Assembly (NCBI RefSeq): GCF_016785945.1 | Contig: NZ_JAEMEF010000006.1 | Coordinates: forward strand, 1 to 64,000 | Direction: 5' to 3' | DNA length: 64,000 nt | Origin: Olleya sediminilitoris | GTDB lineage: Bacteria > Bacteroidota > Bacteroidia > Flavobacteriales > Flavobacteriaceae | In this document: positions 39,831-61,787 of the stretch, piece by piece | How positions within the stretch are numbered: the stretch's first letter is position 1 | Layout: the number at the start of each line of letters is the position of its first letter | The notes under the pieces: generated by a model | Database searches by the model: none | Seen by the model: the letters and a program-made list of their open reading frames with translations, nothing else | Told to the model about the DNA's origin: nothing | Made by a program: the position numbers and the translations under genes

Positions 39831-39877
39831 TTTGTAGCGAGAACGAGATTTGAACTCGTGACCTCCGGGTTATGAAT
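39831..39877. repeat. attL: copy of tRNA-Met 3' half
   Basis: These 47 bases are identical to 61741-61787, from TTTGTAGCGAG to the anticodon-loop sequence TATGAAT. The tRNA 5' half is missing, so this is not a functional tRNA although it may be called as one. The identity ends inside the anticodon arm, the usual crossover zone of tRNA-targeting integrases. Confidence 0.9.
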
Positions 39878-40060
39878 TCTAAATTTGAATACGTTTAAGC
39901 CTAAATATAGGCTATACCATGCTACTTCTATAAAAAATCGTATGCAGTTTAATCTTTTGATTAATAAATATTTCAGAGCAATTTAAAGAAAATATTGGTA
40001 CATCTTATTATATTTTTCACCATTTTTTTATCACTAAGAGTACTTGAAGGAAATTGATTT
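39878..40060. other. Left island end with integrase arm-type site
   Basis: No gene. TCGTATGCA at 39938-39946 is the same 9-mer as in the repeats next to the right end (61632 and 61656), so it is a candidate arm-type integrase site on the other side of the core. A GCCTAAATATAGGC inverted repeat lies at 39898-39911. Confidence 0.45.
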
Positions 40061-40738
40061 TTAATAGCTTGAACAAATATGTTTCTTAATCATGTAAACT
40101 GTTATTGGTTTCAAGGTTTTTCCAGTTTCAGGATGTAACCCATAACTTGTAAAATAATTTAATTGTTTCTTTTTATTCTTACCATACCATAATTTGACAT
40201 CTCCATTTTCTGAAAAATAGGAGGTTTGGCAATTAGGTTCTATCATTTTGAAATTTTCAATACTCTCTTTTTTATAAATTTTAAGTAAATTAGATTGTAA
40301 CATGTCTTTGATAAATGGAGATTCTTCATAATGGTCATTTTGCCAAACCATCCATTTTTCATTATTTACTTTAAATATATTAATTGTAAAAAGTAACAAT
40401 ATAAAGATAGCGGTAGTAATAATGGGAGTTTTATTTTTCACCAAAAACGGTGTTGACTTTTCCGTTATTTCTAAATTAGTATTTAGACTAGGTTTTATAT
40501 CACTTTCTGTTCCTAAATATTGTTTTAATGCTTCTGCAGCATAAATTTTTAAAACAATTGGTTCGTCTCCATTTTTTATAGCTTTATTGTATTTAATTCT
40601 TAAAATTTTTTCTCCATAAGGTTCTCCAGTATTTTCATTTATATAATCAGAAAGGAATGTACTGATGTGTGTTTTTTTTATAAATCCCTGTTCTTCTTTA
40701 GCTTTTAAGTAAGCGTCCAAAAGTAATTTTCTATGCAT
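40061..40738 (-). CDS. Single-helix membrane protein, unknown
   Basis: The 225-residue protein has a cytoplasmic basic N-terminal part (residues 1-105, HRKLLLDAYLKAKEEQGFIKKTH), one membrane helix (about 106-123, PIITTAIFILLLFTINIF) and an exported C-terminal part of about 100 residues with two cysteines (NCQTSYF, HICSSY). The layout is that of a signalling or anchoring protein but I do not recognise it. It has a leader of about 260 nt from a promoter within a long inverted repeat, divergent from the small lipoprotein gene. Confidence 0.65.
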   Translation of the reverse strand: MHRKLLLDAYLKAKEEQGFIKKTHISTFLSDYINENTGEPYGEKILRIKYNKAIKNGDEPIVLKIYAAEALKQYLGTESDIKPSLNTNLEITEKSTPFLVKNKTPIITTAIFILLLFTINIFKVNNEKWMVWQNDHYEESPFIKDMLQSNLLKIYKKESIENFKMIEPNCQTSYFSENGDVKLWYGKNKKKQLNYFTSYGLHPETGKTLKPITVYMIKKHICSSY

Positions 40739-41069
40739 ATAATTCTAGTTTTTAGGTGTGGAAATTCTTTTCCATAAACTTTCCATATCTATTCCATATA
40801 ATTTTACCAAATCGTTTTTTATTTGACACAGAGTTTGAAAATGCCTTCTCGTAATAAGGCTTGCGAGTTTTTTATTCTCTTATGTGAAGTATTGCTTAGT
40901 ACCAAAATTGTAATTGGAAAGTAACAATTTTTATTGAGTAATAGACTTCACTCTTTCCAAAATAAATGAAGAGTTACCTCTTCTAATTTAGTGTGTTGCT
41001 ATGCAAATATAAAAATCTGATAAAACTATCGGACAGCAACACTATTGTCAAATTTTAAATTTTAATAAA
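40739..41069. other. Divergent regulatory region
   Basis: No gene is supported. It holds the minus-strand promoter TATATTTG (41004-41011) enclosed by the inverted repeat GTGTTGC (40993-40999) / GCAACAC (41036-41042). Near 40843-40872 GCCTT...AAGGC and CTCGT...GCGAG can form two mutually exclusive hairpins, followed by six T on the plus strand. The region separates the membrane protein gene from the lipoprotein and sensor kinase genes. Confidence 0.45.
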
Positions 41070-41237
41070 ATGAAGAAATTATTTATTATAGTGTTTACGG
41101 TTTTCCTTAATGTTGCATTTTATTCATGTACTCCAACTAGTTTAGACGACGAGTCTGATAAAGTTGAAATGGGTACAGGTGGAGAAGATGGAGAGATTCT
41201 TCCAGAAGATCCGGAAGATGATGGAGACAACGATTAA
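41070..41237 (+). CDS. Small acidic lipoprotein
   Basis: A 55-residue open frame starts KKLFIIVFTVFLNVAFYSC, a clear lipoprotein signal with the lipid anchor at Cys19. The mature peptide of 37 residues is very acidic (SLDDESDKVEMGTGGEDGE, EDPEDDGDND) and has hardly any positive charge. It ends 52 bp before the sensor kinase gene on the same strand, so it may be a ligand, a tether or a surface tag linked to the two-component system. Too short for automatic calling at usual cut-offs; codon pattern and signal peptide support it. Confidence 0.7.
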   Translation: MKKLFIIVFTVFLNVAFYSCTPTSLDDESDKVEMGTGGEDGEILPEDPEDDGDND

Positions 41238-41289
41238 TTTTTTTTAATATATGGGTAAAAAATAATTTAATAGTTAATAAATTAGAGGA

Positions 41290-43188
41290 ATGAAAATAGT
41301 CAACAAATCATTCCTCTTTTTTTGCTTAATAAACTTATTTCTGAGTTCTGTTTTGTCGCAGGAGACTCTCAATGATGAAGACAGTATTGCATTTTATTAC
41401 AAAAAAGCAAAGGATAAAACTATAGGTTTTGAAAGTAGGCTAAATTTAATTTCAAACGCATTAAATCGTGTAAATAACAATACAGAAAATAAATATTTTC
41501 TTCAAATAATAAACACAAAAAGCTATCTGCACTATTCCTTGAAACAAACAGATAGTGCATTAATTTTTGCAAAGCTTTTATTGGATAGGAGTAAGGAGAG
41601 TGAGGATTTTAAAATGCAAAAATTGGCATTAAAAAAATTAGCAGACTACAACCGAATAAATTTAGATTACATAGAGTCATATAAGTACTATGTTAATTTG
41701 AAAGAATTAAGTAAAAAAACGGAAGACACTTTATCTGCTATAAAAGCCTTACAATTTATTTCAAGTATCCAAAGTGTAATAGGTTTACCTTATGAAAGTG
41801 AAGCTTCAGCAGTTGAATGTTTAGGTTTGTTAGATGAAATAAACAGCACATCTAAAGTCTTAAAATCTAAAGTAGGTATATATAATCAGTTAGGTATTAT
41901 ATATAAAGATTTGAAAAACTATCAACGAGCATTAATACTTTATAATAAAGCTTTAGCTATTACTAATAATACAGGATATATCTCTACCTTATTAAATAAT
42001 AAAGCAAATGTGTATAGAGAGTTAAACAAATTTGAAGAGGCAGAAAAGCTCTTAGATAGTGTTTACAAAAGAAATATTAACAACAAAAATAGCGCCATCA
42101 GAAACAGAGCATTAGATAATTTAGGCTTTGTACAATCCAAACTCGATAAAGAAATCGGTATTCAAAATTTAAAATTAGCACTCAAATATAGAGAGAAAGA
42201 TAATGACGAATTTGGTGTTTATACAAGTTGCATGCATATAGGTGAACATTATTTAAACAAGAATGAAATAAAAAATGCTAGATTTTATGCTTTAAAAGCA
42301 TTTAATATTGCAGAAAAACTTGAAAGTAAAACATATACATTAGAAGCTTTGGAATTGCTTAATAAGTTATCAGATGATAAGTATGTGAAAGAATATATTA
42401 CGCTCAAAGATAGTATACAAGAGGCTAAATTAAAATCAACTAATAAATATGCTTCGGTTAAATACGACTATGCTAAACAAACACTTTTAGCTAAAGAAAA
42501 TGAATTAGAAAAAGAAAAACAGAAACGCCTGAAGTTTGTATACTTAGCAGGTATTATTTTAATACTAATTAGTGCAGCTTTTTTGTATTTTTTATTGAAA
42601 GCAAAACATAAAAAAGAAAAATTACAGCAAGTATTTAATACTGAAGCTAGAATATCTAAAAAGGTTCATGATGAAGTCGCTAATGATGTTTATAAAGTAA
42701 TGACTAAACTTCAAAGTAATGATAGTTCAATATCCAATGATTTTGTTTTAGATGATCTAGAATCTATTTACACAAAAACTAGGGATATTTCTAGAGAAAA
42801 TAACTCTATAGAAGTTGAAGAAGATTTTGAGAACTTAATTACAGATCTTTTACTAAGTTTTAAAAATCAATCTACCAATATTATTACTAAAAATTTATCC
42901 AATTTAGATTGGACTTCTATTTCCGCATTAAAGAAAATGGCTATATATAGAGTTTTACAAGAATTGATGGTTAATATGAAAAAACATAGTGAAGCTTCTT
43001 TTGTAGTAGTAAATTTTTCAAAAAAGAACGAGAAACTTATTATTAAGTATACAGATAACGGTAAGGGTAGTACATTAAAGAAAGCAAATGGTTTGGATAA
43101 TGTGGAAAACCGTATTTCTGCAATTGATGGAACTATTACATTTGAAACAGAAAGCAATAAAGGCTTTAAAGCTCTAATAATAGTATAG
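41290..43188 (+). CDS. TPR-domain sensor histidine kinase
   Basis: The 632-residue protein has a signal peptide, periplasmic tetratricopeptide repeats (about residues 50-390, e.g. GIYNQLGIIYKDLKNYQRALILYNKALAI in parts), a coiled coil, one membrane helix (about 415-438) and a HisKA_3-type kinase core with His460 in KKVHDEVANDV. The ATPase domain has QELMVNMKKH and TDNGKGS. This is the NarX/DesK-like kinase type that pairs with NarL-type regulators. The next gene, 1 bp away, is its regulator. A GAGG lies just upstream of the start codon. Confidence 0.92.
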   Translation: MKIVNKSFLFFCLINLFLSSVLSQETLNDEDSIAFYYKKAKDKTIGFESRLNLISNALNRVNNNTENKYFLQIINTKSYLHYSLKQTDSALIFAKLLLDRSKESEDFKMQKLALKKLADYNRINLDYIESYKYYVNLKELSKKTEDTLSAIKALQFISSIQSVIGLPYESEASAVECLGLLDEINSTSKVLKSKVGIYNQLGIIYKDLKNYQRALILYNKALAITNNTGYISTLLNNKANVYRELNKFEEAEKLLDSVYKRNINNKNSAIRNRALDNLGFVQSKLDKEIGIQNLKLALKYREKDNDEFGVYTSCMHIGEHYLNKNEIKNARFYALKAFNIAEKLESKTYTLEALELLNKLSDDKYVKEYITLKDSIQEAKLKSTNKYASVKYDYAKQTLLAKENELEKEKQKRLKFVYLAGIILILISAAFLYFLLKAKHKKEKLQQVFNTEARISKKVHDEVANDVYKVMTKLQSNDSSISNDFVLDDLESIYTKTRDISRENNSIEVEEDFENLITDLLLSFKNQSTNIITKNLSNLDWTSISALKKMAIYRVLQELMVNMKKHSEASFVVVNFSKKNEKLIIKYTDNGKGSTLKKANGLDNVENRISAIDGTITFETESNKGFKALIIV

Positions 43189-43189
43189 T

Positions 43190-43855
43190 ATGTTTAAAAA
43201 TGTTTTAGTCTCAGACGATTTATTAAGTATAAACCAAGGTGTTTTAACGATATTAGAAACCTTGAACATTAATAAAGTGCAGGAAGTACAATATTGTGAC
43301 GACGCTTATTTAAAAATTAAGAAATCTATTTTAGATAACCAACCTATAGATTTATTGATCACGGATTTATCTTACAAAAAAGATCATCGAGATCAAAAAT
43401 TGAATTCTGGTGAAGATTTAATTATGGCTTTGTATAATGAATATCCTAAACTAAATGTTATTGTTTATTCGATAGAGGACAGGTTACAAAAAGTAAGAAC
43501 TTTAGTTAATAAATATAATGCCAAGGCTTATGTTTGTAAGGGTAGAAAAGGATTGGTGGAACTAAGTAAGGCTATCGAAACAGTTTATGCTGGAGAAAAA
43601 TACCTATCTCCACAAATTCAGTCAGCATTATCATCAAAAAGTAATATTGAGATAACAGATTTTGATATAGAATTATTACAACAACTTTCCTGTGGTTTAT
43701 CTCAAGATGATATTTCTAAATTTTTAAAAACAAATAACATATCTCCATTTAGTTTAAGTTCTGTTGAAAAAAAAATTAATAAACTTAAAATTCAATTTGA
43801 GGCAAATAATACAATTCATTTAGTTTCAATAGCTAAAGACCTCGGACTTATTTAA
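43190..43855 (+). CDS. NarL-like response regulator
   Basis: The 221-residue protein has a receiver domain (Asp9, Asp10, phosphoacceptor Asp59 in LLITDLSY) to about residue 130. A C-terminal helix-turn-helix follows (about 150-215, FDIELLQQLSCGLSQDDISKFL, VEKKINKLKIQF) that is a diverged LuxR type. It should be phosphorylated by the TPR kinase encoded just upstream. Targets may be the nearby island promoters, but no site can be assigned. Confidence 0.9.
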   Translation: MFKNVLVSDDLLSINQGVLTILETLNINKVQEVQYCDDAYLKIKKSILDNQPIDLLITDLSYKKDHRDQKLNSGEDLIMALYNEYPKLNVIVYSIEDRLQKVRTLVNKYNAKAYVCKGRKGLVELSKAIETVYAGEKYLSPQIQSALSSKSNIEITDFDIELLQQLSCGLSQDDISKFLKTNNISPFSLSSVEKKINKLKIQFEANNTIHLVSIAKDLGLI

Positions 43856-44484: not shown

Positions 44485-44778
44485 ATGAATAAACATTATT
44501 TATTATCACAAATGAAATCATCAGGAACTGCATACTTGTGTTGGTTCTTTTTGGGATGCCATTATGCTTACTTAGGAAAATGGGGTTTACAGTTTTTATA
44601 TTGGTTTACTCTTGGAGGTGTTGGTATATGGTGTCTTATCGATTTATTTCATATTCCGGCAAAAGTTAGTAATCACAATATGATAATTAGTAGTCAAATT
44701 GCAGAAATTGAAAAGGGTGAAAAAGAAGAAAATCACTCAAGAAATATGGCAATGATTGCAGCATCTAAATATAATTAA
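44485..44778 (+). CDS. TM2-domain membrane protein
   Basis: The 97-residue protein has two membrane helices (SGTAYLCWFFLGCHYAYLG and LQFLYWFTLGGVGIWCLIDLF) joined by the short GKW turn, the TM2 fold, and an acidic C-terminal tail (EIEKGEKEENHSRN). TM2 proteins are small inner-membrane proteins of unknown role, often near stress or signalling genes. It is the first gene of a four-gene operon with gaps of 1-2 bp. Confidence 0.88.
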   Translation: MNKHYLLSQMKSSGTAYLCWFFLGCHYAYLGKWGLQFLYWFTLGGVGIWCLIDLFHIPAKVSNHNMIISSQIAEIEKGEKEENHSRNMAMIAASKYN

Positions 44779-44779
44779 T

Positions 44780-45172
44780 ATGATATCTACTGAATTGAAG
44801 AGTCATTTTCTAAGACTTTATCAAATAGCTTTTGCTGACGATAATTTTGATGTTTTAGAAATGCAGATGCTTTATAAGTTTGCAGAAGAGCGAGGATTGA
44901 GTAAAGATCAACTTAATCAAATTTTATTAAATCCTTCTCATGATACATTAATTCCTAATTCATTGGAATTAAGAGTAGAGTATTTATACGATCTGGCAAT
45001 TATGATTTGGGCTGATGGTAAAGTTACTGAAGACGAATATATTACTCTAAAAAAGTATTGTAAGAAATTTGAGTTTTTAGATGAAAATATAACAGAACTA
45101 GCAGATTACTTATTGAAATCAGCAAAAGAAGGTGTGAGTAAAGAAAAAATTATAACTGATATAAATTCATAA
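44780..45172 (+). CDS. TerB-like protein
   Basis: The 130-residue product is all-helical and acidic: LYQIAFADDNFDVLEMQMLY, AEERGLSKDQLNQIL, YLYDLAIMIWADGKVTEDEY. The DGxVxxxE step near residue 82 is typical of tellurite-resistance TerB-like domains, which bind metal ions at the membrane in the Ter stress network. ATG 44780 is chosen: it follows the TM2 stop codon by 1 bp, while an earlier in-frame ATG lies inside the TM2 gene. Confidence 0.8.
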   Translation: MISTELKSHFLRLYQIAFADDNFDVLEMQMLYKFAEERGLSKDQLNQILLNPSHDTLIPNSLELRVEYLYDLAIMIWADGKVTEDEYITLKKYCKKFEFLDENITELADYLLKSAKEGVSKEKIITDINS

Positions 45173-45174
45173 AC

Positions 45175-46437
45175 ATGGGAGCGATCAAAAAAATTTTTAA
45201 ATTAAAGAATAGCGAACCAAGTAATTTTTTGACAGATACTACGGGAGAGGCAAGAGAACAAGTTAGGATAACTTACTATCAAAGTGGGTATGGAGCGTCC
45301 AAGAAAGCTGAAGGTAACCCTGTGACATTTGGAGTAGGTTTACATAACTTATTTAATACTTTTGAAAACCTATGTAGAAAACAACTTAATGAACAAAAAA
45401 TATTAAAACAACCTTACATTGAATCTCAAGAAAGAGAACGAACAGAACTAAAAAAAAGAGAAACAGCTAAATCCATTTATGAGGATCAAATAAAAGGTAT
45501 TGAAGACAAAATTGATAAAGCTAAATTCGAAATTATTGATGTTAAACAGTATCCTGATAAATATGGTATTGACTCAGACAAAAGACCTAAAGCACAGTTT
45601 TATATTGGATTGTTTTTATTGTTGCCAATAACAATTTACCTTTTTGTCTTTTATATTTCAGCGACATATTCAGCTTTTTTTAAAGATTTTGAAACAGATA
45701 GCTTAACAGCTGCTATTTTTGACTCTAACGCTTTCGCTAAAGCTATAAGTGATGGATGGTTGGAAGCTATTTTTGTTGGAACTTTGCCATTTGTTTTTAT
45801 GGGGCTTGGCTATTTAGTACATATGTTTCATAAAATTAAAGGTTGGAAGTCAATCATTAAAATAGCATCACTTTATGTGTTAACATTCATTTTTGATGTG
45901 ATTTTGGCATACTTAATAGAAAAGAAAATCTTTTTATATGACGCAGTGCTAGGACAACAATTTTCACCTGCTGATGCTTTGGGTAGTGTTAATTTTTGGG
46001 GGATTATTTTTGCTGGATTTGTTGTTTATATTATTTGGGGTTTAGTCTTTGATTTTGTGATGAAAGAACATGAAAACGTTGATAAAGTCAAAGTTTTCAT
46101 ACTAAATCAAAAAGAGACCATAAAAAATGCTATCAAAAAGAAAGGAGAACTAACTATCCTTGTTGATACAGTGGAAAAAGAGATAACAGCAATTAAAGGT
46201 AAAATCACAGAATTACAAGCAAAAATTGATGGTTTTATTTTTCCCGTAAAGGAGTATTTGCATTATCATTATCAATATGTTGAAGGTTGGTATCAGGCTA
46301 TAAATTCAGAATTACAATTTCCTATAAAACAATTAGATGAAATAAGAGAGAATTGTGAGGTAGTTGCTTTAAAACATCTTGAAAATTTAAATCTTAAAGA
46401 TCTTGAAGTTCAGAATATTATCTATGAAAAAAAATAA
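45175..46437 (+). CDS. Coiled-coil membrane protein, unknown
   Basis: The 420-residue protein has a soluble N-terminal part, a coiled coil (about 75-125, ESQERERTELKKRETAKS), four membrane helices (about 141-165, 195-220, 228-250, 277-300) and a second coiled coil (about 310-360). The final soluble segment is rich in aromatics (YLHYHYQYVEGWY). Both coiled coils should face the cytoplasm, which gives a scaffold for the TerB-like partner. No known family recognised. It lies 2 bp after the TerB-like gene and 1 bp before the vWA-like gene. Confidence 0.75.
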   Translation: MGAIKKIFKLKNSEPSNFLTDTTGEAREQVRITYYQSGYGASKKAEGNPVTFGVGLHNLFNTFENLCRKQLNEQKILKQPYIESQERERTELKKRETAKSIYEDQIKGIEDKIDKAKFEIIDVKQYPDKYGIDSDKRPKAQFYIGLFLLLPITIYLFVFYISATYSAFFKDFETDSLTAAIFDSNAFAKAISDGWLEAIFVGTLPFVFMGLGYLVHMFHKIKGWKSIIKIASLYVLTFIFDVILAYLIEKKIFLYDAVLGQQFSPADALGSVNFWGIIFAGFVVYIIWGLVFDFVMKEHENVDKVKVFILNQKETIKNAIKKKGELTILVDTVEKEITAIKGKITELQAKIDGFIFPVKEYLHYHYQYVEGWYQAINSELQFPIKQLDEIRENCEVVALKHLENLNLKDLEVQNIIYEKK

Positions 46438-46438
46438 A

Positions 46439-47347
46439 ATGATGAAAAATAAAATTAACATATTTTTTTTACTTTTAATTGTTGTTTCCTGTAAAGAAGA
46501 CGTTAACAAAGGAGATACAGATATAGAAGTAAATACAAAAACGTCTGTATCGCATAAATCAAAGGACAACTTAAATATTAGTTTTTTATTGGATTTGTCA
46601 GATAGAATAAGTCCAGAAAAATATCCAAATAGTACAATGGAATATTATCGTAGAGATATAGCCTATATTAAATCTGTGTCCGAAGCTTTTGATATGCATT
46701 TAAGAGGTAAAAAAGTTAGAGCAATTAATGATAAAATGCAATTGTATTTTGATCCAGAACCTAGTAATCAAAATATCAATACTATTTCTAACAGTTTAAA
46801 ATATAGTCTTGACAAAAAGAATGTAACGTTGTCTGTTCTTGATGATATCAAAGAAAGTTATGCTTCAAAGCCACAAAAAATATATGACTTGGCAATTGCA
46901 GACAATAAGTATGTTGGATCTGATACTTGGCGTTTTTTTAAGTCAAAGGTTAATGATTATTGTATTGAAGAAAATTATAGAAATATTTTAGTTGTCCTAA
47001 CTGATGGTTATATCTATCATAAAAACACTAAAATTAAAGAAGATAATTTAACAACATATCTAACACCTAGTTTTATTCGAGAAGTAAAATTAAATAATAA
47101 AAATTGGGAGAGTAAAATTGAAGATCAGCAATTTGGTTTTATTCCAGCAGTTCATGATTTATCTAATCTAGAAATCCTTGTTCTAGGTATTAATCCGGAT
47201 AATAAAAATCCTTATGAGGAAGATTTAATTAAAAAATATTGGAGCGATTGGTTTGATGCTATGAAAGTGAGACATTATCAAATTAAAACATCAGCATTAC
47301 CATCTAATCTGGATAAAATAATTAAAAATTTTATTTTAAATAACTAG
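46439..47347 (+). CDS. vWA-like lipoprotein
   Basis: The product (302 residues from ATG 46439) has a lipoprotein signal (INIFFLLLIVVSCKED). Its core resembles a von Willebrand A domain: strand ISFLLDLSDRISP, where the MIDAS DxSxS is reduced to DLSD; NILVVLTDGY, the second MIDAS Asp strand; and LEILVLGINPD. It is probably held at the outer or inner membrane facing the periplasm. Start chosen directly after the stop of the previous gene; upstream in-frame ATGs lie inside that gene. Fourth and last gene of the TM2-TerB operon. Confidence 0.75.
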   Translation: MMKNKINIFFLLLIVVSCKEDVNKGDTDIEVNTKTSVSHKSKDNLNISFLLDLSDRISPEKYPNSTMEYYRRDIAYIKSVSEAFDMHLRGKKVRAINDKMQLYFDPEPSNQNINTISNSLKYSLDKKNVTLSVLDDIKESYASKPQKIYDLAIADNKYVGSDTWRFFKSKVNDYCIEENYRNILVVLTDGYIYHKNTKIKEDNLTTYLTPSFIREVKLNNKNWESKIEDQQFGFIPAVHDLSNLEILVLGINPDNKNPYEEDLIKKYWSDWFDAMKVRHYQIKTSALPSNLDKIIKNFILNN

Positions 47348-47388
47348 TTTAATTGTATTTTGCTTAAGCTAAAAATCATAACCAAACC

Positions 47389-47922
47389 ATGCCAAAACTA
47401 TTCATAGTATTTTTTTCTGTATTCTTTTGTTCCATTGTAATTAATCAGCCCATATTAGTGAAAAAAACTAATATACATGGTAAGGTTGTAGGGATCATGG
47501 ATGGAGACACATTTAAACTTCTTTTAAGTGATTCAACCACAGTAAAAATTAGATTAGCCAACATAGACTGCCCAGAAAAAAAACAGCCATTTTCAACAAA
47601 GGCAAAGCAATTTGTTTCTAATGCAATTTTTAATAAAAATGTCACCGTTCAAGTATTAAAAAAAGATAGGTACAGACGTTTAATAGCTAATGTCTTTTAC
47701 GGAGATTCAATAAATCTAAACCATCAATTGGTTGAAAATGGATTAGCATGGCATTATGTGAAATATTCAAAAGACACCATTTTACAAAGTTTAGAAGATA
47801 AAGCTAAAAAAGATAAATTAGGTTTGTGGCAAGATCCAAATTCTATTTCTCCTTGGCAATGGAGAGCCAATAAAAAAGAAGCTTCTAGAATTAAAAAACT
47901 TAATAAAGCAAAAGCTAAATAA
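47389..47922 (+). CDS. Secreted thermonuclease-family nuclease
   Basis: The 177-residue product has an N-terminal hydrophobic export signal and a staphylococcal-nuclease OB fold: GKVVGIMDGDTFKLLL (Asp-rich calcium site), VKIRLANIDCPEKKQPF (catalytic Arg and Asp), KKDRYRRLIANVFYG (second catalytic Arg) and NGLAWHYVKYSKD. It should cut DNA and RNA outside the cytoplasm. The tail is basic (KKEASRIKKLNKAKAK). It lies 41 bp after the vWA operon and just before a second exported protein gene. Confidence 0.92.
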   Translation: MPKLFIVFFSVFFCSIVINQPILVKKTNIHGKVVGIMDGDTFKLLLSDSTTVKIRLANIDCPEKKQPFSTKAKQFVSNAIFNKNVTVQVLKKDRYRRLIANVFYGDSINLNHQLVENGLAWHYVKYSKDTILQSLEDKAKKDKLGLWQDPNSISPWQWRANKKEASRIKKLNKAKAK

Positions 47923-47933
47923 ACTTTGTATTT

Positions 47934-48296
47934 ATGAAAGCTTTAAAAATTGTATTTTTTTTTATTGCATTTTCTTTTGGAGTTAATGTGTTTTCGCAAA
48001 CTGTTTACACTACAAAAACAGGCGAAAAATATCATAAATCAACATGTCATTATTTAAAATATTCTAAAAAAGAATATAGTTTAAGCAAAGCTATCACTTT
48101 GGGGTTTAAAGCTTGCTTAGTGTGTAAACCAAATAATAAAACAGTAGATGCTGGCAATGCTTTAGCAAATAGAAAACAAACAAATATAACACCAACTAAA
48201 GCTACTGTAGCAAAACAATGCACAGGTAAAACAAAAGCAGGTAAGCGTTGTAAACGGAAAACAAAAAACGTTAATCAAAGGTGTTATCAACATTAA
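47934..48296 (+). CDS. Exported protein with Ada-like and DUF5763-like zinc motifs
   Basis: The 120-residue product has a signal peptide (IAFSFGVNVFSQ). Then comes a metal-binding Ada-like segment (YHKSTCHYLKYSKKEYSL, FKACLVCKP, residues about 32-66) and a C-terminal CTGKTKAGKRCKRKT...RCYQH motif typical of DUF5763. Both halves should bind zinc. This pair of motifs is often found next to nuclease genes, and here a thermonuclease gene lies 11 bp upstream, so the two may act on extracellular DNA together. Confidence 0.82.
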   Translation: MKALKIVFFFIAFSFGVNVFSQTVYTTKTGEKYHKSTCHYLKYSKKEYSLSKAITLGFKACLVCKPNNKTVDAGNALANRKQTNITPTKATVAKQCTGKTKAGKRCKRKTKNVNQRCYQH

Positions 48297-48348
48297 TGTA
48301 ATTTGTACAGATTACGGTTTTCCTCTTTTTTATTAGGCTTCTGCTATA

Positions 48349-48356
48349 TAGCTTTG
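48349..48356 (+). promoter_or_regulatory. Promoter of lipoprotein gene (-7 box)
   Basis: TAGCTTTG matches TAnnTTTG and lies 25 bases before the start codon at 48382. No clear -33 box. Confidence 0.35.
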
Positions 48357-48381
48357 AATCAAATATTAAAAACTATATGTT

Positions 48382-50065: not shown

Positions 50066-50067
50066 TA

Positions 50068-54098: not shown

Positions 54099-54872
54099 CT
54101 ATTTCAAAGTTTCCTCTAAAGCCTTCAACTCCATACCTAACTCATTAAACATACCTATAATACTACTAAATTTTAATTCCTCTTGCGTGTATTCTTGTGT
54201 ATTGATGCTGCAAGTAAATTCCCAAATTTCTAAAACTTCATTGATAGGTACATTATAGTTATCATAGGATTTATTGTCTGACTTTAGTAATAAAGAATTG
54301 TTTAAATCAATAGTATTATAAACACGTTTGTAAACCATGCCATCATTTAAAGTCACTAACACATAAGTTTTTCCATTTTTAATATCACTTCTATCTTCAA
54401 TAAATTGACCAATAACAAATGTGCCATCTTTCATTGGAAGCATAGAGTCTCCTTTTATAGGGAATGCACGATGTTTTCCTGTAGGTAAAAAAGGTAATTT
54501 TATTTTTTGTAGTTGTTCAATATATTCAGGATCATCATATCCTGCTAAATAACCAGCAGACGCTTTTACAGGTACTACTTCAATTAAATTTTCATTGTCA
54601 TCATCAACAGTTATTGGAAATAGTACTCGTTGATTGTTCAATTCTATAAAAGAGAAGTCTTTAGCTTTAGTCAAATCGTTACGTAATAAAATGTCTATTG
54701 GTATTTTAAAGTAATCTGAAAACGTAATTAAAAACTCAATGTTAGGAGCAGATCGGTTCTCTTCGTAAGAGCCTATCCTTGATCTAGTAACGTTTAACTC
54801 TTCTGCAAGTCCCTCTTGAGATAGCTTTTTGAGAATTCTTAAATGTTTAATGTTTTTGGATATGTAATTCAT
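54099..54872 (-). CDS. LexA-like XRE/S24 repressor, copy 2
   Basis: The 257-residue paralogue of the 38792 gene has the same layout: XRE helix-turn-helix (residues 5-60), likely self-cleavage at Ala106-Gly107, Ser143 and Lys182. Residues 101-150 are almost identical between the copies, while the DNA-binding helices differ at a few positions (VTRSRIGSYEENR against VSRSRIGSYEEKR). It is divergent from the Y-family polymerase gene with 52 bp between start codons, so one operator can control both. It should repress the translesion cassette until DNA damage. Confidence 0.93.
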   Translation of the reverse strand: MNYISKNIKHLRILKKLSQEGLAEELNVTRSRIGSYEENRSAPNIEFLITFSDYFKIPIDILLRNDLTKAKDFSFIELNNQRVLFPITVDDDNENLIEVVPVKASAGYLAGYDDPEYIEQLQKIKLPFLPTGKHRAFPIKGDSMLPMKDGTFVIGQFIEDRSDIKNGKTYVLVTLNDGMVYKRVYNTIDLNNSLLLKSDNKSYDNYNVPINEVLEIWEFTCSINTQEYTQEELKFSSIIGMFNELGMELKALEETLK

Positions 54873-54924: not shown

Positions 54925-56139
54925 ATGCAAAATAATATTTTACATCTAGATTTGGATACGTTTTTTGTCTCATGCGAAAGACTAATAGATAGTCGTCTAA
55001 AAAACAAACCTTTATTAGTCGGAGGGACAGGGGATAGAGGTGTAGTGGCAGCTTGTAGTTATGAAACTAGAATGTTTGGTGTTCATTCTGGTATGTCTAT
55101 GAAAGTGGCTAGACGCTTATGTCCAGAAGCTATTGTTATTAGAGGAAATGCTTCAATTTATACAAAGTTTTCACATCAAATTACTGAGATTATAAAAGAA
55201 AAAGTTCCAGTTTTTGAAAAAGCAAGTGTTGACGAATTTTACGCAGATTTATCAGGAATGGATAAATTTTACGGTTGTTATAAATATGCTTCAGAGCTTA
55301 GACAAAAAATAATTAAGGACTCTGGATTACCTATTTCATTTGGATTATCTGCTAATAAAATTGTATCTAAAGTAGCAACAGGAGAAGCTAAACCAAATAA
55401 CCAATTACAAATAGACTCAGGTTTTGAAAAAGATTTTTTAGCGCCATTGTCCATTCGTAAAATACCATCGGTCGGAGAAAAGACATATCAAGTTTTAAGA
55501 GGTTTAGGAGTGGATAAAATTAGCGTCATCCAACAAATGCCATTAGAAATGATGATTAGCGCGTTAGGTAAAAATGGACGTACTATATGGAAGCGTGCTC
55601 ATGGTATAGATAATCCACCTTTAGTACCATTTTATGAGCGCAAATCTCTATCTACAGACCGTACTTTTGGAAAGGATACCATAGATATGGTTAAGCTTAG
55701 AACTACCATTTTTGCTATGGCAGAAAATTTAGCATTTCAATTACGTAAAGGAGATAAACTAGCAGGTACGTTAAGTGTTAAAATCAGATACTCAGATTTT
55801 AATACCTATTCTAAACAGGTTAAAATACCCTATTCTAGTGCAGACCATGTTATAATTCCTAAAGTTTTAGAATTGTTTGAAAAGCTTTATGAGCGTAGAT
55901 TATTAATCCGATTAGTGGGTGTGAAAATTAGCGATATAGTAACAGGAAATTATCAAATTAATCTTTTTGATGATACCGAAGAAATGTTAAGTCTTTATAA
56001 TGCAATGGATACAATAAGAAATAGATATGGGGATTTAAGTATTATGAGAGCCTCTGCAATGGGAGCTAAAACCATTGGTAGGTTTGATAATCCTTTTAAT
56101 GGAGAACCACCAATTTTATTAGCACATCGTAACCAATAA
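54925..56139 (+). CDS. dinB: Y-family DNA polymerase (DinB/ImuB-like position)
   Basis: The 404-residue translesion polymerase starts NNILHLDLDTFFVSCERL with the metal-binding Asp9. Asp103-Glu104 in SVDEFYADLSG are intact, as is the steric-gate region AACSYETRMFGVHSGM, so it should be catalytically active, unlike ImuB. Little-finger residues follow to about 345. Its stop overlaps the start of the next polymerase gene by 1 bp (TAATG), so both are made together under the S24 repressor. Confidence 0.94.
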   Translation: MQNNILHLDLDTFFVSCERLIDSRLKNKPLLVGGTGDRGVVAACSYETRMFGVHSGMSMKVARRLCPEAIVIRGNASIYTKFSHQITEIIKEKVPVFEKASVDEFYADLSGMDKFYGCYKYASELRQKIIKDSGLPISFGLSANKIVSKVATGEAKPNNQLQIDSGFEKDFLAPLSIRKIPSVGEKTYQVLRGLGVDKISVIQQMPLEMMISALGKNGRTIWKRAHGIDNPPLVPFYERKSLSTDRTFGKDTIDMVKLRTTIFAMAENLAFQLRKGDKLAGTLSVKIRYSDFNTYSKQVKIPYSSADHVIIPKVLELFEKLYERRLLIRLVGVKISDIVTGNYQINLFDDTEEMLSLYNAMDTIRNRYGDLSIMRASAMGAKTIGRFDNPFNGEPPILLAHRNQ

Positions 56140-59096
56140 TGTATTTAAATTGTCATTCATATTATTCTTTGCGTTTTGGAACGTTTTCTGAAATCGATCT
56201 CTTGGATTTAGCTCAGACAAATGGACTAAATAGAATTGCGTTGACAGATATTAACAATACATCTGCTTGCTTAAATTTTGTACGTCACGCAAAAAAACGC
56301 AAAATTAAGGCAATAATTGGTATAGATTTTAGAATTGGTGCGCAACAAAACTATGTAGGCTTAGCAAAAAACAACGAAGGTTTTAAGCAATTAAACCAAT
56401 TTTTGTCAAAACATTCTGAAGAAAAAATGAAATTGCCTGATATTGCGCCAACTTTTGACGATGCTTTTATAATTTATCCTTTTGAAAAAATATTACAGCA
56501 TAATAAAAATACTTTTGCAAAAAATGAATTTGTTGGTGTATCAATCGCTGATTTGCGCAAGCTTAGATTTTCAAAATTAAAACATCAAAAAAGTAAAATT
56601 GTTTTATTACAGCAAGTAACAGTTAGAGATAAAAAAGATTTTAATGCTCACAGATTATTAAGAGCCATAGATAATAATACATTATTAAGTAAACTAGATA
56701 AATCAGAAGAGTGTAATCCTTCTGATAAAATGTTGTCTATAGACGAATTAAATACTGCTTTATCTGAATTTCCTTTTATTTTAGAAAACACAAAAGCTTT
56801 AATGCAGCAATGTGATATTAATTTTGGCTTTGGTGATGAAAGAGAGTCTCAAAACCAAAAACTATACACTGACTCGTTTGAAAATGATTGTTTGTTACTA
56901 GAAAAATTATGTGATCAAGGTTTGCCTAAACGCTATACTAACCCAACACCAAAAGTGTATGCACGTTTAAAAACAGAATTAGACACTATCAAGTCTATGC
57001 ATTTTGTTTCCTTTTTCTTAATCAATCACGACATTGTGTCTTACGCTAAAAGCAAAGGTTATTTTCATGTTGGTAGAGGTAGTGGAGCAAATAGTATTGT
57101 AGCTTATATTATTGGAATTACAGATGTTGATCCAATCGAGTTAGACTTATATTTTGAGCGATTTATAAACCCATTCAGAGCATCTCCACCAGATTTTGAC
57201 ATTGATTTTTCTTGGAAAGATCGCGATGATGTGACAGATTATATTTTCAAAAGATTTAAGCATACAGCTTTATTAGCAACTTACAACACATTTAAGTATA
57301 GAGCAGTAGTTAGAGAGTTAGGAAAGGTGTTTGGTTTGCCAAAAGAAGAAATAGATAAGCTTAGTAAGAATAATTATCAGATCGCTAGCTTAGATGACAT
57401 TTCAAAATTAGTTTTAAAATATGGTAAATTAATCGAAGGATTTCCAAACCATTTAAGTGTGCACTCCGCAGGAATATTAATATTAGATAAGCCAGTACAT
57501 TGTTATTCCGCTACAGATTTACCTCCAAAAGGATTTTCTACTGTGCAATTTGATATGATTATTGCAGAAGATGTTGGTGTGTTCAAATTTGATATTTTAG
57601 GACAACGTGGTTTAGCAAAAATTAAGGAAGCACTTGAAATTATAGCAGAAAATAGACCAGAATTACCACTAATTGATATTACAAATGTAGAAGCTTTTAA
57701 AAAAGACCCTAAAATAAATAACCTACTAAAATCAGGAGGAGCAATTGGCGCTTATTATGTGGAGTCTCCAGCTATGAGAGGCTTAATGCAACAACTACAA
57801 ACACAAGATTATTTAGGATTAGTAGCAGCAAGTTCTATTATCAGACCAGGTGTATCTGGTTCAGGAATGAAAGAAGAATTTATTAAAAGACATCGTCACC
57901 CAGAAAAGCGTAGAGAGGCACATCCAATATTATATAGTATTATGCCAGAAACTTATGGTGTAATGGTGTATCAAGAAGATGTTTTGAAAGTAGCAAATCA
58001 GTTTGCAGATTTAACTTTAGGCGAAGCAGATGTACTTAGGAGAGGGATGAGTGGTAAGTTTAGATCTAGAAAAGAATTTGAAGCAGTCGAAGAAAAGTTT
58101 ATTCATAATTGCAGAAATAAAGGGTATGCGGACGATTTAATTTTTGAAGTGTGGAGTCAAATTAAAAGTTTTGCAGGTTATGCATTTGCAAAAGGACATT
58201 CGGCGTCTTATGCTGTAGAAAGTTACCAAAGTTTATATTTAAAATGTTATTTTCCATTAGAGTTTATGACTGCTGTGCTTAATAATGGCGGTGGTTTTTA
58301 TAGTGCAGAACATTATTTTCATGAAGCCAGACAACAAGGTGCAACTGTTTGTTTGCCTTGTATAAACACAAGTGATCATCCAAATAAACTAATTGGTTCC
58401 TCAATTTATTTAGGTTTTGGTTATTTAAAAAAATTAGAAACATACACAGTAAAAAGAGTTTTAACAGAAAGGCAATTGCATGGTTATTTTAAATCGTTAG
58501 ATGATTTTATTGATAGGGTTTTGATTAGTATTGAACAATTAACAATTTTAATAAGAATAGATGCTTTTAGATTTACTAATAAACCTAAAGTAAAATTACT
58601 TTGGGAAGCTATATTTAAATTGAATGCTAAAGGAAAAGAAAGCATACAATCTAAATTATTTAACACAGAACATAAGCAATTTTTTTTACCTAAATTAGAT
58701 AATAATTGGATTGAAAACGCTTATGACGAAATGGAGTTGATTGGTTTTCCTTTATGTAATTATTTTGATTTAGTTGATCAACCTATGGAAGCCGGACATT
58801 TAGCTTCTGAAATGAATCAGTTTATTGGTAGAAATATGCTTATTTATGGAAACCTAGTAACTACGCGTTATAATAAAACATCACAAGGCAAATTAATGAG
58901 GTTAAGTACTTTTGTAGACCGAAAAGGGGCTTATTTTGATGCTGTTCATTTTACTGATGTAGTCAATCAGTATCCAATTAATGGATTAGGTGTTTATGCA
59001 TGTTACGGTAAAATAACAGGTAGATTTGGATTTTATAGCATGAGTATTATTTGGAGCAAAAAACAAGCAATACTTAAAGATCCTAGAAATGAATAA
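56139..59096 (+). CDS. DNA polymerase III alpha subunit, DnaE2-type
   Basis: The 985-residue C-family polymerase has an N-terminal PHP domain (YLNCHSYYSLRFGTFSEIDL, to about 230), the catalytic centre PPDFDIDFSWKDRDD (Asp352, Asp354, Asp356), NHLSVHSAGILI, GYAFAKGHSASYAVESYQS and a C-terminal OB fold (MLIYGNLVTTRYNKTSQGK). It is shorter than a replicative DnaE (about 1150) and lacks the tau-binding tail, as expected of DnaE2/ImuC. Its pairing with a Y-family polymerase matches error-prone mutasomes, but no ImuA-type gene is present. Confidence 0.92.
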   Translation: MYLNCHSYYSLRFGTFSEIDLLDLAQTNGLNRIALTDINNTSACLNFVRHAKKRKIKAIIGIDFRIGAQQNYVGLAKNNEGFKQLNQFLSKHSEEKMKLPDIAPTFDDAFIIYPFEKILQHNKNTFAKNEFVGVSIADLRKLRFSKLKHQKSKIVLLQQVTVRDKKDFNAHRLLRAIDNNTLLSKLDKSEECNPSDKMLSIDELNTALSEFPFILENTKALMQQCDINFGFGDERESQNQKLYTDSFENDCLLLEKLCDQGLPKRYTNPTPKVYARLKTELDTIKSMHFVSFFLINHDIVSYAKSKGYFHVGRGSGANSIVAYIIGITDVDPIELDLYFERFINPFRASPPDFDIDFSWKDRDDVTDYIFKRFKHTALLATYNTFKYRAVVRELGKVFGLPKEEIDKLSKNNYQIASLDDISKLVLKYGKLIEGFPNHLSVHSAGILILDKPVHCYSATDLPPKGFSTVQFDMIIAEDVGVFKFDILGQRGLAKIKEALEIIAENRPELPLIDITNVEAFKKDPKINNLLKSGGAIGAYYVESPAMRGLMQQLQTQDYLGLVAASSIIRPGVSGSGMKEEFIKRHRHPEKRREAHPILYSIMPETYGVMVYQEDVLKVANQFADLTLGEADVLRRGMSGKFRSRKEFEAVEEKFIHNCRNKGYADDLIFEVWSQIKSFAGYAFAKGHSASYAVESYQSLYLKCYFPLEFMTAVLNNGGGFYSAEHYFHEARQQGATVCLPCINTSDHPNKLIGSSIYLGFGYLKKLETYTVKRVLTERQLHGYFKSLDDFIDRVLISIEQLTILIRIDAFRFTNKPKVKLLWEAIFKLNAKGKESIQSKLFNTEHKQFFLPKLDNNWIENAYDEMELIGFPLCNYFDLVDQPMEAGHLASEMNQFIGRNMLIYGNLVTTRYNKTSQGKLMRLSTFVDRKGAYFDAVHFTDVVNQYPINGLGVYACYGKITGRFGFYSMSIIWSKKQAILKDPRNE

Positions 59097-59098: not shown

Positions 59099-59530
59099 TT
59101 AAAAAGTATTTAAATATACTAAACTCTTTGTTTCTATATCATAAAAAGGAGATTGTCCATGTTGATTTTTTTCTAAATTATTAATTGGCAAATAGCGTTG
59201 CGTTATTAGTGACTTTAAATCTAATATGTCTTTTTTGGTAGCAGGTTTGTTTTCTGATGATGTAAGTAAAGCTTTTAAACCGTCTGCAAGTATGTTTCCA
59301 GCAGCAGCATTTCCAATTCCAATAGCACTAATGGATTCATTTTTGGTTTGTTGTGGAGTTGAAGTAGTGCTTATGTTTTTACTTTTTAGTTGAGAAGTGG
59401 TTAATGTATTAGGTACAACTTGTCTATAATGGTAAGCTTTAGATCGGCATGAGTTGCTACAGTATTTTTGTACACGTCTACGTGTTGGTTCAAACTCTTT
59501 ATAACAATATTCACAAGTGTACAGTTTCAT
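59099..59530 (-). CDS. Zinc-finger protein, island-borne
   Basis: The 143-residue product starts with a four-cysteine zinc finger (YTCEYCYKEFEPTRRRVQKYC, CRSKAYHYR, residues 3-36), like the short FCS or MYM fingers of mobile-element proteins. A low-complexity Ser/Thr linker, a hydrophobic patch (ISAIGIGNAAAGNILADGLKAL) and a C-terminal part follow. It converges with the polymerase gene and is preceded by a perfect 46-bp palindrome. Function unknown; DNA binding is likely. Confidence 0.7.
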   Translation of the reverse strand: MKLYTCEYCYKEFEPTRRRVQKYCSNSCRSKAYHYRQVVPNTLTTSQLKSKNISTTSTPQQTKNESISAIGIGNAAAGNILADGLKALLTSSENKPATKKDILDLKSLITQRYLPINNLEKNQHGQSPFYDIETKSLVYLNTF

Positions 59531-59534
59531 TTTT

Positions 59535-59580: not shown

Positions 59581-59581
59581 G

Positions 59582-60337
59582 TTATTCCTGAATATTGAAA
59601 ATCTGATTTAATATCGCTTTCTCAGCTTGTTGTTCAGAAACTAATATTTTCAGCTTTGGTTTTACTGTTTTATTAGGATTATATTCTTTAGTTTTTTCTA
59701 ATAAATTATCAAAAAAATCATTACTACTAATAGGATATTCTTTTTTACTATTAAGTTCTGAGATTTCTTTAGTTACAGTTAAGTTTATATCAGATTTAAT
59801 ATTTTTAAAATTTGTTTTAATTAAATGTAATACATCTAGCCTGTCATTAGGCATTATTTTTTGATTAGGGTAAAATTGTTTTACAAAGTCTTCAAAATGT
59901 TTTCTATAAGAGTTGAATTGAATAGTGAAAATGCCCAATATTTTGTTATCTAAATTACGTATTTGAGACGTGTTATTTCTGATCCAATTAGCAACATATA
60001 AAGCGCCTTCAGCTTGTTCGTAATATTTGTCTAATAAGTAAGAGAACTCAATCTCTTTTAGTACGCTTTTCATTTGTATGAGATCAAAAATAATTTCTCT
60101 AAGATTAGTAATTTGCTTCATGAATTTATTGCCATCAGTATCAAGGTCGAACTCATAAATATTGATAGATTCACTAATAATTAATAATTTTTGATCAAAG
60201 ACATTTTTCATTACAGTTTTACTTCGTTCTTCTAAAATATCTGATTCAAATAAAAAAATTGGCACATAAAATATTAAATTGCTCCAAGTTTTAAATGTCA
60301 ATTCATTATAGTAATTATTTAAATCTAGTTTGCTCAT
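59582..60337 (-). CDS. Unknown protein next to integrase
   Basis: The 251-residue cytoplasmic protein is mainly helical and charged (YLLDKYYEQAEGALYVANWIRN, FNSYRKHFEDFVKQFYPNQK). Its C-terminal 30 residues have PNKTVKPKLKILVSEQQAEKAI. It starts immediately after the integrase stop (TAAATG), so the two are cotranscribed and coupled. It may be an accessory or directionality factor of the element but there is no recognisable excisionase helix-turn-helix. Confidence 0.7.
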   Translation of the reverse strand: MSKLDLNNYYNELTFKTWSNLIFYVPIFLFESDILEERSKTVMKNVFDQKLLIISESINIYEFDLDTDGNKFMKQITNLREIIFDLIQMKSVLKEIEFSYLLDKYYEQAEGALYVANWIRNNTSQIRNLDNKILGIFTIQFNSYRKHFEDFVKQFYPNQKIMPNDRLDVLHLIKTNFKNIKSDINLTVTKEISELNSKKEYPISSNDFFDNLLEKTKEYNPNKTVKPKLKILVSEQQAEKAILNQIFNIQE

Positions 60338-61693
60338 TTATTCATTCGTATTTTTTAACATTTCAGAATAATCATTAGGTAACTCAGCATCAATATCTCG
60401 TAAGTATTTTTCTAAAGCGGACATACTTAAATGACCCGTAATTAACATTAATTTACTTTTAGCTTCAAAAGGTGACGACTCTTTAACTAAGGCTCTATAC
60501 AATTTAGTAATGTATGTGTGTCTAAAACTATATAGTCCATAGTCTATACCTAAATCAAATTTTTGTTTTACACTTTTTTTAAATCTTTTAGAATAAAAAT
60601 CTCTTCTATTGTTAAGTTTAGCTTCCCATTTACCTCCAATTTTATCACCTGCAAATAATAAGTCATCAGGATCAAATAGAGTAAGGTCAGGTAATTCTCT
60701 CCATAATAATTCAGGAATGATTTTAGTTTTTAAAGGACTGTTTTTAGCTTTAAATTGTATGGTTTTGTTAGCGATATTTATATTTTTTATTTGCAGTCGA
60801 CAAACTTCTATAGGTCTTAATAAATTATAGGATATAAATTTTATAAAAAGTAAAAGTACTTTGTCATTTTCTTCTAAATGATTAAAAATAGCCTCTTGAG
60901 TTTCTTGCGTGTATGTTTTATTTCTGTTGGGTATCGTTTTTAAAGTCGGAATTTTTTTGACAAAGTTTGATTTAATAATTTCATTGTCTTCTAATACTTG
61001 AATAATACTACTTAATTCTGTTCTGTAATTATTTCTATTTCTAGCACTTGTGTTTTCTAAAATATTATTTAAAAATTCAAAAGTGATTTTTTTAGTTAAT
61101 TCATCAATCGTTTTTAATGCTGGATAAGTTTTATTTAACCATTTTAAAAATACATCAATTCTGTTTTTATAACCTCTAAAGGTTGTTACACTAACTAATT
61201 GCTTTTTATAATTAAGCGCAAAACCAAAAGCTTCTTGAATATTTATTTTAGGAGTCTCAATCTTCTCTTTCAATTGTGGTGTTGAAGTTTCTTTAACTTC
61301 TTCGACATGCTTTATTTCAGTATTAACATAATTAAATGTTACTTCAGGTTTTTTTGTTTTCTTTTTTAAACTAGAATGTAATTGGCTATTATCCTCAAAA
61401 GGTGAATACCCTTGTTGTAAAAATTTAAGTAGTGTTTTTCTATATTGAGTTAAAACTTGTAGACGATCTTCTTTGGTTTTATACTTATTAGCATCACCAT
61501 AAAAAGGAGTGACACGTTTTAATTTATCGGTTTGAGGATCTCTGTAAGAGAAATAAACGTACCATCGCTTAGATAAATCACCTTTGGCGTCGTAAATTTT
61601 TGGTGTTGAATATTGTTTTTTCTTTTTCAAATCGTATGCACTATCGTATTCACTTTCGTATGCAAATGTAATGATCTGTTTAAAATTAAGCAT
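60338..61693 (-). CDS. int: Tyrosine recombinase (island integrase)
   Basis: The 451-residue integrase has a SAM-like core-binding domain (about 150-245) and a catalytic domain with Arg293 (LLRPIEVCRL), Lys322, Arg391-His392 in LYSFRHTYITK, His421 (ITGHLSM) and nucleophile Tyr430 (LEKYLRD). The usual first His of the HxxR box is Tyr388, as in many Bacteroidota integrases. The start codon lies directly behind the tRNA-Met terminator. Codons 10-21 are a 12-bp tandem DNA repeat that probably doubles as arm-type sites. Confidence 0.95.
   Translation of the reverse strand: MLNFKQIITFAYESEYDSAYDLKKKKQYSTPKIYDAKGDLSKRWYVYFSYRDPQTDKLKRVTPFYGDANKYKTKEDRLQVLTQYRKTLLKFLQQGYSPFEDNSQLHSSLKKKTKKPEVTFNYVNTEIKHVEEVKETSTPQLKEKIETPKINIQEAFGFALNYKKQLVSVTTFRGYKNRIDVFLKWLNKTYPALKTIDELTKKITFEFLNNILENTSARNRNNYRTELSSIIQVLEDNEIIKSNFVKKIPTLKTIPNRNKTYTQETQEAIFNHLEENDKVLLLFIKFISYNLLRPIEVCRLQIKNINIANKTIQFKAKNSPLKTKIIPELLWRELPDLTLFDPDDLLFAGDKIGGKWEAKLNNRRDFYSKRFKKSVKQKFDLGIDYGLYSFRHTYITKLYRALVKESSPFEAKSKLMLITGHLSMSALEKYLRDIDAELPNDYSEMLKNTNE
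61632..61664. repeat. 12-bp tandem repeat, likely integrase arm sites
   Basis: TCGTATGCA, TCGTATTCA and TCGTATGCA start at 61632, 61644 and 61656, exactly 12 bp apart, inside the integrase coding start. The same 9-mer occurs beyond the left core (39938) and in the left remnant (39745, with ACGTATTCA 12 bp before it). Confidence 0.6.
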
Positions 61694-61724
61694 AAAAAAA
61701 ACGGTTTAGAAGACTAAACCGTTT
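61694..61724 (-). terminator. tRNA-Met terminator supplied by the island
   Basis: AAACGGTTTA pairs with TAAACCGTTT around a 6-nt loop, then eight T on the minus strand. The integrase ATG follows directly after the T run. A near copy lies at the left end. Confidence 0.8.
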
Positions 61725-61740
61725 AAATACAGTGATTTAA

Positions 61741-61787
61741 TTTGTAGCGAGAACGAGATTTGAACTCGTGACCTCCGGGTTATGAAT
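61741..61787. repeat. attR core inside tRNA-Met
   Basis: 47 bases identical to 39831-39877. They run from just beyond the tRNA 3' end to the anticodon loop, so insertion restores a complete tRNA. Confidence 0.9.

Follow-up and report, generated by a model that had tools for sequence, protein, structure and literature searches.

Phage-inducible chromosomal islands (PICIs) are packaged by a helper temperate phage, and an integrase-driven, helper-dependent life style is common to PICIs, phage-inducible chromosomal minimalist islands (PICMIs) and integrative mobilizable elements (IMEs). For the tycheposons, packaging by helper phages has reportedly been proposed. The element described here lies in a stretch of 64,000 nucleotides (nt) from Olleya sediminilitoris (RefSeq assembly GCF_016785945.1, contig NZ_JAEMEF010000006.1, positions 1 to 64,000 of the forward strand; referred to as the window) and is very probably a 22-kb island integrated in a site-specific manner; its type, which targets tRNA-Met, is widespread in one bacterial family. 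Tycheposons and other tRNA-targeting cargo islands (PMC10872708, PMC11389934) resemble it, in the available sections of these reports, in the tRNA boundary, the tyrosine recombinase and the variable cargo, and a Methylophilaceae case among them has the same tRNA-Met target. The islands described here differ from the tycheposons of these sections in their bacterial hosts and in having an integrase family of their own, and no evidence of packaging was seen in them; they have a module of small genes, an integrase start that abuts a terminator and arm repeats within codons, traits that were not looked for in the tycheposons. With PICIs, PICMIs and IMEs the island would share the helper-dependent life style, but none of their genes for packaging or mobilisation was detected in it. 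An island integrated into a tRNA gene is a known kind of element; the present family, the terminator-fused integrase start, the arm layout and the recurrent SOS cassette cargo were not met with in the literature search. Nothing joining Flavobacteriaceae, genomic island, tRNA-Met and integrase was retrieved, nor a Bacteroidetes integrative tRNA-Met island, by a search that covered subscription journals thinly and leaves novelty unproven.

Boundaries of the tRNA-Met island and its relatives

The following features define the ends of the island, its integration module and the adjoining left flank:
61744..61818, minus strand: intact tRNA-Met (anticodon CAT), called by ARAGORN; its 3′ half is the right attachment (att) core
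61741..61787, minus strand: right att core, from the anticodon loop of tRNA-Met to its 3′ end and 3 nt beyond; exact 47-bp repeat
39831..39877, minus strand: left att core (displaced 3′ half of tRNA-Met); exact 47-bp repeat
61700..61723, minus strand: intrinsic terminator hairpin of the tRNA, island-borne, with a T run that adjoins the ATG of the integrase (61691-61693)
60338..61693, minus strand: tyrosine integrase, 451 amino acids (aa), open frame
61632..61664, minus strand: P arm, three 12-bp-spaced arm-type repeats (TGCATACGA/TGAATACGA, tRNA sense) in integrase codons ~10-21
39938..39946, minus strand: P′ arm, TGCATACGA repeat ~60 nt inside the left core
59582..60337, minus strand: module gene 2, encoding 251 aa modelled as mostly helical; belongs to no known family
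59099..59530, minus strand: module gene 3, encoding 143 aa with a CxxC..CxxxC zinc finger at the N terminus
39733..39783, minus strand: remains of the 5′ end of an older integrase gene, with ATG, two arm repeats spaced by 12 bp and a disrupted frame
39789..39812, minus strand: terminator hairpin of the older integrase remnant, outside the left core

The blocks at 39831-39877 and 61741-61787 form a direct repeat with 47 of 47 positions identical, as a preliminary description of this DNA had stated, and the tRNA call by ARAGORN bears out the assignment of the right block to the 3′ half of an intact tRNA-Met. The tyrosine integrase said to point away from the tRNA was recovered in that orientation, as an open frame with a PHROG integrase match (E 2.5e-26); its match to Pfam Phage_integrase (E 3.4e-5) falls just short of Pfam's own cut-off. 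Residues R293, R391, H421 and Y430, which we take to be catalytic, are invariant across 12 homologues. A chance origin of the repeat is ruled out by an exact match of 47 bp within 27 kb together with the recurrence of the core pairing in other regions. That the whole structure arose by chance, through misassembly or by mere duplication of tRNA-Met deserves next to no credence: the 47/47 repeat lies on one contig, the same anatomy is seen at independent loci in other genomes, and nothing was found in favour.

The tRNA-Met locus was compared among the genomes of the genus, all ten of which have the right-hand neighbour pabC. The gene hisS lies ~0.3 kb from tRNA-Met in G004 and G005, where the site carries an unrelated terminator; the distance is ~14.5 kb in G002, 19 kb in G009, 21 kb in G007, 21.5 kb in G008, 25 kb in the window and 67 kb in G001. 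The two genes are on different contigs in G003, and no hisS was found in G006 (75% complete). When the flanks of the window island were joined at the core, they aligned to G009 across the junction (83.5% over 1,564 columns, left-core spacer included); in G009, an exonuclease gene, a LexA-like gene and an integrase stub stand beside the tRNA and the island is absent. The uninterrupted site in G009 and the short hisS-tRNA distance in G004 and G005, a sister island in G001 whose gene order is partly shared with that of the window island, and tandem arrays in other genomes support the earlier proposal of an island integrated by a tRNA-targeting tyrosine integrase. The island is real and well bounded, and it is probably mobile or recently mobile.

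The integrase remnant and terminator at 39733-39812, which the preliminary description had missed, mean that the left flank is not virgin chromosome; an older element once occupied the site. Stubs of older integrases were found at the same position in G009 (23 codons) and G001 (~36 codons, where the G001 island has its far end), and as a degenerate trace in G002; the tRNA-Met site has therefore been used repeatedly. The stubs show that elements decay here, and the window island might likewise be a fossil, that is, an old insertion fixed in the chromosome and immobile. This is quite improbable, as its integrase, module genes, arms, terminator and 47/47 core are intact and the integrase shares 86% identity with its counterpart in the G001 sister island.

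Homologues of the integrase (E 1e-40 or better) were found in 71 of the 397 genomes of the family. A search of the phylum at E 1e-70 gave 6 of 296 genomes, all labelled with the same family as the genome of the window, and a plasmid collection gave one weak match (25% identity). Five loci were obtained from a scan of named genomes with the integrase; the relatives are Pareuzebyella sediminis, two Flavobacteriaceae metagenome-assembled genomes and, at 26-28% identity, Tenacibaculum finnmarkense. The islands are accordingly called Flavobacteriaceae-type here. The window, the loci found by search and three merged regions supplied starts of the integrase gene; a match was kept if it reached the first 45 residues and dropped if it began later, which left 38 distinct starts. 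A tRNA-Met core stands 44-56 nt (mostly 52-54 nt) before the ATG in 37 of these, within an intact tRNA-Met in 25 cases and as a core fragment in 12, and one start is without it. Two tRNA-Met genes, of 75 and 74 nt, are used as targets.

Twenty regions were examined for the far end of the element. Three were without tRNA-Met, and a distal core was found in nine of the other 17. Altogether 13 distal copies were taken as element ends, of which 12 match the local tRNA at 40/40 and one at 37/40; another copy, in G407, matches at 33/40 and was not counted as an element end. Tandem arrays occur in G358, G064, G001b and G268, with successive cores ~20-31 kb apart. The core sequence itself varies between genomes.

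As a separate observation, the T-arm half of tRNA-Met is variable among the congeners G000-G009 (at least three sequences), and the island cores of G000 and G001 are identical to the tRNA-Met version of their own host.

Terminator, arm-type repeats and module genes

The terminator hairpin folds with a z score of -4.47. Across 34 distinct aligned homologues it is paired in 98.2% of cells, both partners have changed in six of its ten pairs, and no shuffle out of 500 reached any of the five measures. The T run directly precedes the integrase ATG in 38 of 38 distinct sequences, the predicted hairpin ending 0-6 nt away; the script took the combination of T run and ATG nearest to the expected start and allowed one other base in the run, and no sequence failed. 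An early stop lies in frame in two of the 38 abutting starts. Two integrases from outside the family were found at the same tRNA-Met, and neither abuts the terminator: they begin ~25 nt (the second integrase in G256) and ~100 nt (Tenacibaculum, L056) after the T run. Abutment therefore looks like a trait specific to this integrase family. Because the start codon abuts the T run, the integrase of an integrated copy would be made mainly on read-through of the tRNA terminator or after circularisation.

Within integrase codons ~10-21, repeats of CATACGA and its variants recur at a spacing of 12 bp. Of the 110 Tyr/His codons at positions 8-26, 106 have C as their third base, whereas beyond codon 40 this is true of 267 of 940 (p 5e-47); the motif was counted 77 times in 3,420 nt as against five times in 44,460 nt. 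It is also present 30-110 nt inward of the far core. Four classes of the motif were distinguished, and 14 of 15 elements have one and the same class at the integrase end and the far end (13 elements counted together, with the addition of G053, the carrier of the fourth class). The repeats are probably the arm sites of the integrase, for which the co-variation of class from end to end is the best evidence. Scoring of the repeats against synonymous recoding was rejected as proof of the arms, since the peptide repeat itself produces similarity and the score was weak (mean z 1.28; 8 of 38 above 2); the case rests instead on the codon-end test, the motif density and the matching far-end classes.

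The anatomy and the empty sites show the following course of integration. The integrase recombines the core of the circular form, which runs from the anticodon loop to the 3′ end, with the same stretch of tRNA-Met; the incoming element restores the tRNA and supplies its terminator, and the displaced 3′ half marks the far end. In doing so, the integrase may bridge the core and two arms, namely the 12-bp repeats in its own first codons and those ~60-70 nt from the far core, sites that were placed by comparison. New copies would enter between the tRNA and older copies, and the observed tandem arrays would decay in this order to the observed integrase stubs. The result is a Bacteroidota-type island family with mapped att sites (core, two arms and terminator) that can be tested directly.

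In 13 elements (266 open reading frames (ORFs) in 193 clusters), only the integrase (13/13), the 251-aa gene (11/13) and the 143-aa gene (10/13) are common to more than three elements. No relative of module gene 2 was found in Pfam, PHROG, PADLOC or PDB; module gene 3 matches a PHROG HNH-type model over its zinc finger (E 1e-6). Fold searches with both small proteins gave no match at E 0.001 from models that are weak (predicted template-modelling scores of 0.30 and 0.60). Homologues of the zinc-finger gene stand near the integrase: 41 of the 50 strongest lie at most 3 kb from a listed integrase match. Module gene 3 is a candidate excision factor, and this gene and/or its neighbour probably assists excision.

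A comparable arrangement is present in a phage. Leeuwenhoekiella phage vB_LaeS_Arctus_1 (PP314354.1) is a complete temperate siphophage with annotated terminase, capsid and tail genes and an integrase of 33% identity; its record closes with the tRNA-Met core, behind which come a hairpin and then a T run that stops one base short of the integrase ATG (L122/L124). It differs from the islands in that their arm motif is absent from its first 300 nt and its integrase codons contain a different 12-bp repeat (ATCGCAAACAA, twice, seen by eye). An IMG/VR contig encodes an integrase homologue of 42% identity, also with 12-bp-spaced repeats in the first codons. The integration module is thus common to phages and islands. 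On these grounds the window island might be a phage satellite, packaged by a helper temperate phage with which it shares this module. We consider this possible but doubtful: no packaging or capsid gene was found with Pfam among the 20 island ORFs, the element sizes spread from 11 to 35 kb, and a common att site would make island and phage competitors.

The SOS cassette

The polymerases mentioned in the preliminary description are present, and they proved to be part of a LexA-like/DinB-like/DnaE SOS cassette, the other half of which lies outside the island:
54099..54872, minus strand: LexA-like repressor XRE_B (HTH_3 and Peptidase_S24; Pfam)
54925..56139, plus strand: Y-family polymerase, DinB/Pol IV-like (Pfam IMS 1.6e-42; NCBIfam Pol IV models all below cut-off)
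56139..59096, plus strand: accessory DnaE-type polymerase, 985 aa (Pfam; NCBIfam TIGR00594 above cut-off)
37458..39565, minus strand: GIY-YIG/DEDD exonuclease and second LexA-like repressor XRE_A, outside the island; other half of the cassette

XRE_A and XRE_B are 75.9% identical. As a divergent unit, with the exonuclease and LexA-like genes reading one way and those of the Y-family polymerase and DnaE the other, the cassette is intact in G001, G003, G004 and G005. The accessory DnaE is present in five of ten congeners and absent from G009. Thirty DnaE positions were picked among the matches listed for genomes with the integrase, and five of them lie at most 23 kb from it. Four islands with both cores contain the cassette (window, G407, G317 and G053); its positions and orientations in them differ, which suggests that it was captured repeatedly by islands. 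G317 and G053 have a divergent integrase (~44.5% identical), and no match to the two small module genes was found in them. In G139, the cassette and the exonuclease gene stand beside the integrase, with no far core in 30 kb; G137 has a distant version of the cassette, and no tRNA was found in the region. An att-flanked element of 11.4 kb in G407:C3 (L116, ~83.8-95.3 kb) carries mainly SOS genes as cargo, encoding a LexA-like protein, a Y-family polymerase, DnaE and SRAP, together with a second tyrosine integrase.

The polymerase genes of the window are nearer to those of G001 (polY/dnaE nucleotide identity 90.3/86.6%) than to those of G003-G005 (83-85/81-82%). For hisS, by contrast, identity to each of the eight congeners with a match is 88-90%, and pabC is not nearer to G001. 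This difference may be taken as a modest sign of transfer.

The rumAB operon, which specifies error-prone polymerase functions, is said to be carried on SXT/R391 integrative and conjugative elements (ICEs). An imuABC mutagenesis operon has been described on a symbiotic plasmid (PMC4151985). Both resemble the present case, as far as the available sections of that report extend, in that error-prone polymerase genes are borne on a mobile element; they differ in element type and in their proteobacterial hosts. In Bacteroidetes, an S24/HTH repressor, a DinB-DnaE operon and a GIY-YIG exonuclease have been placed in one SOS regulon under a non-canonical LexA (PMC8565304). Compared with the accessible part of that report, the cassette described here is alike in gene set and differs in that a repressor and the polymerases are on an att-flanked island; the words 'horizontal', 'lateral' and 'plasmid' are absent from the main text of the report. 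A phage-repressor-like HTH with an S24 domain beside DinB/DnaE, the mark of the non-canonical LexA of Bacteroidetes, was found here. The two SOS operators published for Bacteroidetes, CTAA-N5-TTAG and GGA-N5-TCC, are absent as exact motifs between XRE_B and polY and just upstream of XRE_A, and CTACAAATRT is present instead in both LexA-like promoters (window positions 54877 and 39570). Since the available text of PMC8565304 reports functional degenerate operator variants in clades with several LexA paralogs, the missing exact operators do not exclude membership.

Terminator and cassette may be combined in a tentative proposal: the tRNA-Met terminator of the host would restrain the integrase, which would be off upon integration and on after read-through or circularisation, and some of the islands, such as the 11.4-kb one in G407, would be transmissible SOS-mutagenesis modules with their own repressor, which could explain the LexA duplications of the phylum. 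The island would then be a candidate example of integrase control through termination of tRNA transcription and would offer a physical route for the duplications reported.

Several observations weigh against the reading of the element as a mobile tRNA-Met island with this integration module, control and cargo. The distal core was not seen in eight of the 17 tRNA-bearing regions within the ~8-39 kb fetched downstream, and the comparisons of empty sites are all between species, with no same-species site among them. The GC content of the island (0.27-0.31) is only slightly lower than that of the flanks (0.29-0.32), and with so small a contrast it was dropped as a sign of foreign origin. The far-end arm of G358c, the element with the 37/40 core, is of another class than its integrase end; this far end probably belongs to another element. 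The module genes are not universal, as two elements with divergent integrases lack both and G001b1 lacks the zinc-finger gene; seen from the integrase, 42 of 91 listed matches have a zinc-finger homologue within 3.5 kb. Control of the integrase by read-through is a step that we infer from the layout. The cassette is mostly not island-borne, the accessory DnaE being present in 210 of the 397 family genomes, and the XRE_B protein is at least as close to G003 and G004 (90.7 and 91.1%) as to G001 (90.7%).

Other cargo and route of transfer

The remaining features of the window island are:
40061..40738, minus strand: protein of 225 aa at the left end, without a family; the G001 island has a homologue close to its far end
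41290..43855, plus strand: TPR histidine kinase and response regulator; two-component domains below the Pfam cut-off
44485..50445, plus strand: cargo block with TM2, TerB, unknown membrane and lipoprotein-like proteins, SNase and bPH; partly common with the G001 island
50530..52278, plus strand: OLD-like nuclease (AAA_15 and OLD-like TOPRIM; Pfam)
52617..53639, plus strand: unknown cargo protein of 340 aa that matches no family in Pfam or NCBIfam

Ten island proteins were scanned with PADLOC. The OLD-like nuclease gave a strong match (Old, 4.1e-65), those of SNase (2.6e-12) and TerB (1.1e-5) were weak, and seven proteins were without a match, which qualifies the earlier description of the cargo as mostly stress and defence. 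For the vWA protein proposed at 46403-47347, Pfam, PADLOC, PHROGs and NCBIfam gave no support.

Among the 20 island ORFs, Pfam detected neither phage structural families, such as the capsid, portal and terminase genes of a prophage, nor conjugation families, such as the relaxase and type IV secretion genes of an ICE; with a search of the window genome for relaxase PF03432, the only relaxase family searched, which also found none, this agrees with the preliminary description. Transfer from cell to cell would require a helper. Helper-dependent islands are generally understood to be often of the IME type, and the window island might accordingly be mobilised via an oriT by a helper conjugative element. 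This is rather unlikely in view of the absence of PF03432 from seven of eight element-bearing genomes and its restriction in G268 to contigs other than that of the element, a comparison that covers this relaxase family and neither oriT nor other families.

The cargo of the sister islands was surveyed with 145 ORFs of at least 180 aa from 12 elements (62 in set A1 and 83 in set A2), after 12 ORFs crossing the fetch borders had been dropped; the tallies comprise the 25 commonest families per set, and rare mobility genes could be missed. Defence is represented by type I restriction, GajA, oligonucleotide cyclase and Mokosh proteins, polysaccharide use by SusD/TonB, alginate lyase and chondroitinase B (set A1: elements of G001, G268, G064 and G085), and efflux by AcrB-type proteins and E1-E2 metal ATPases. 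Judged from these gene contents, cargo beyond the integrase and the two small genes is interchangeable between islands, one integration module being combined with defence, Cas9-like/Cas1, polysaccharide-use, efflux and SOS mutagenesis genes. Some sister elements encode DnaB-like, AAA_25 and DUF6371 proteins, IS110 transposases and second integrases. In the G001 sister island (L033, 6327-18768), a Cas9-like protein and Cas1 are encoded beside Mokosh-like proteins.

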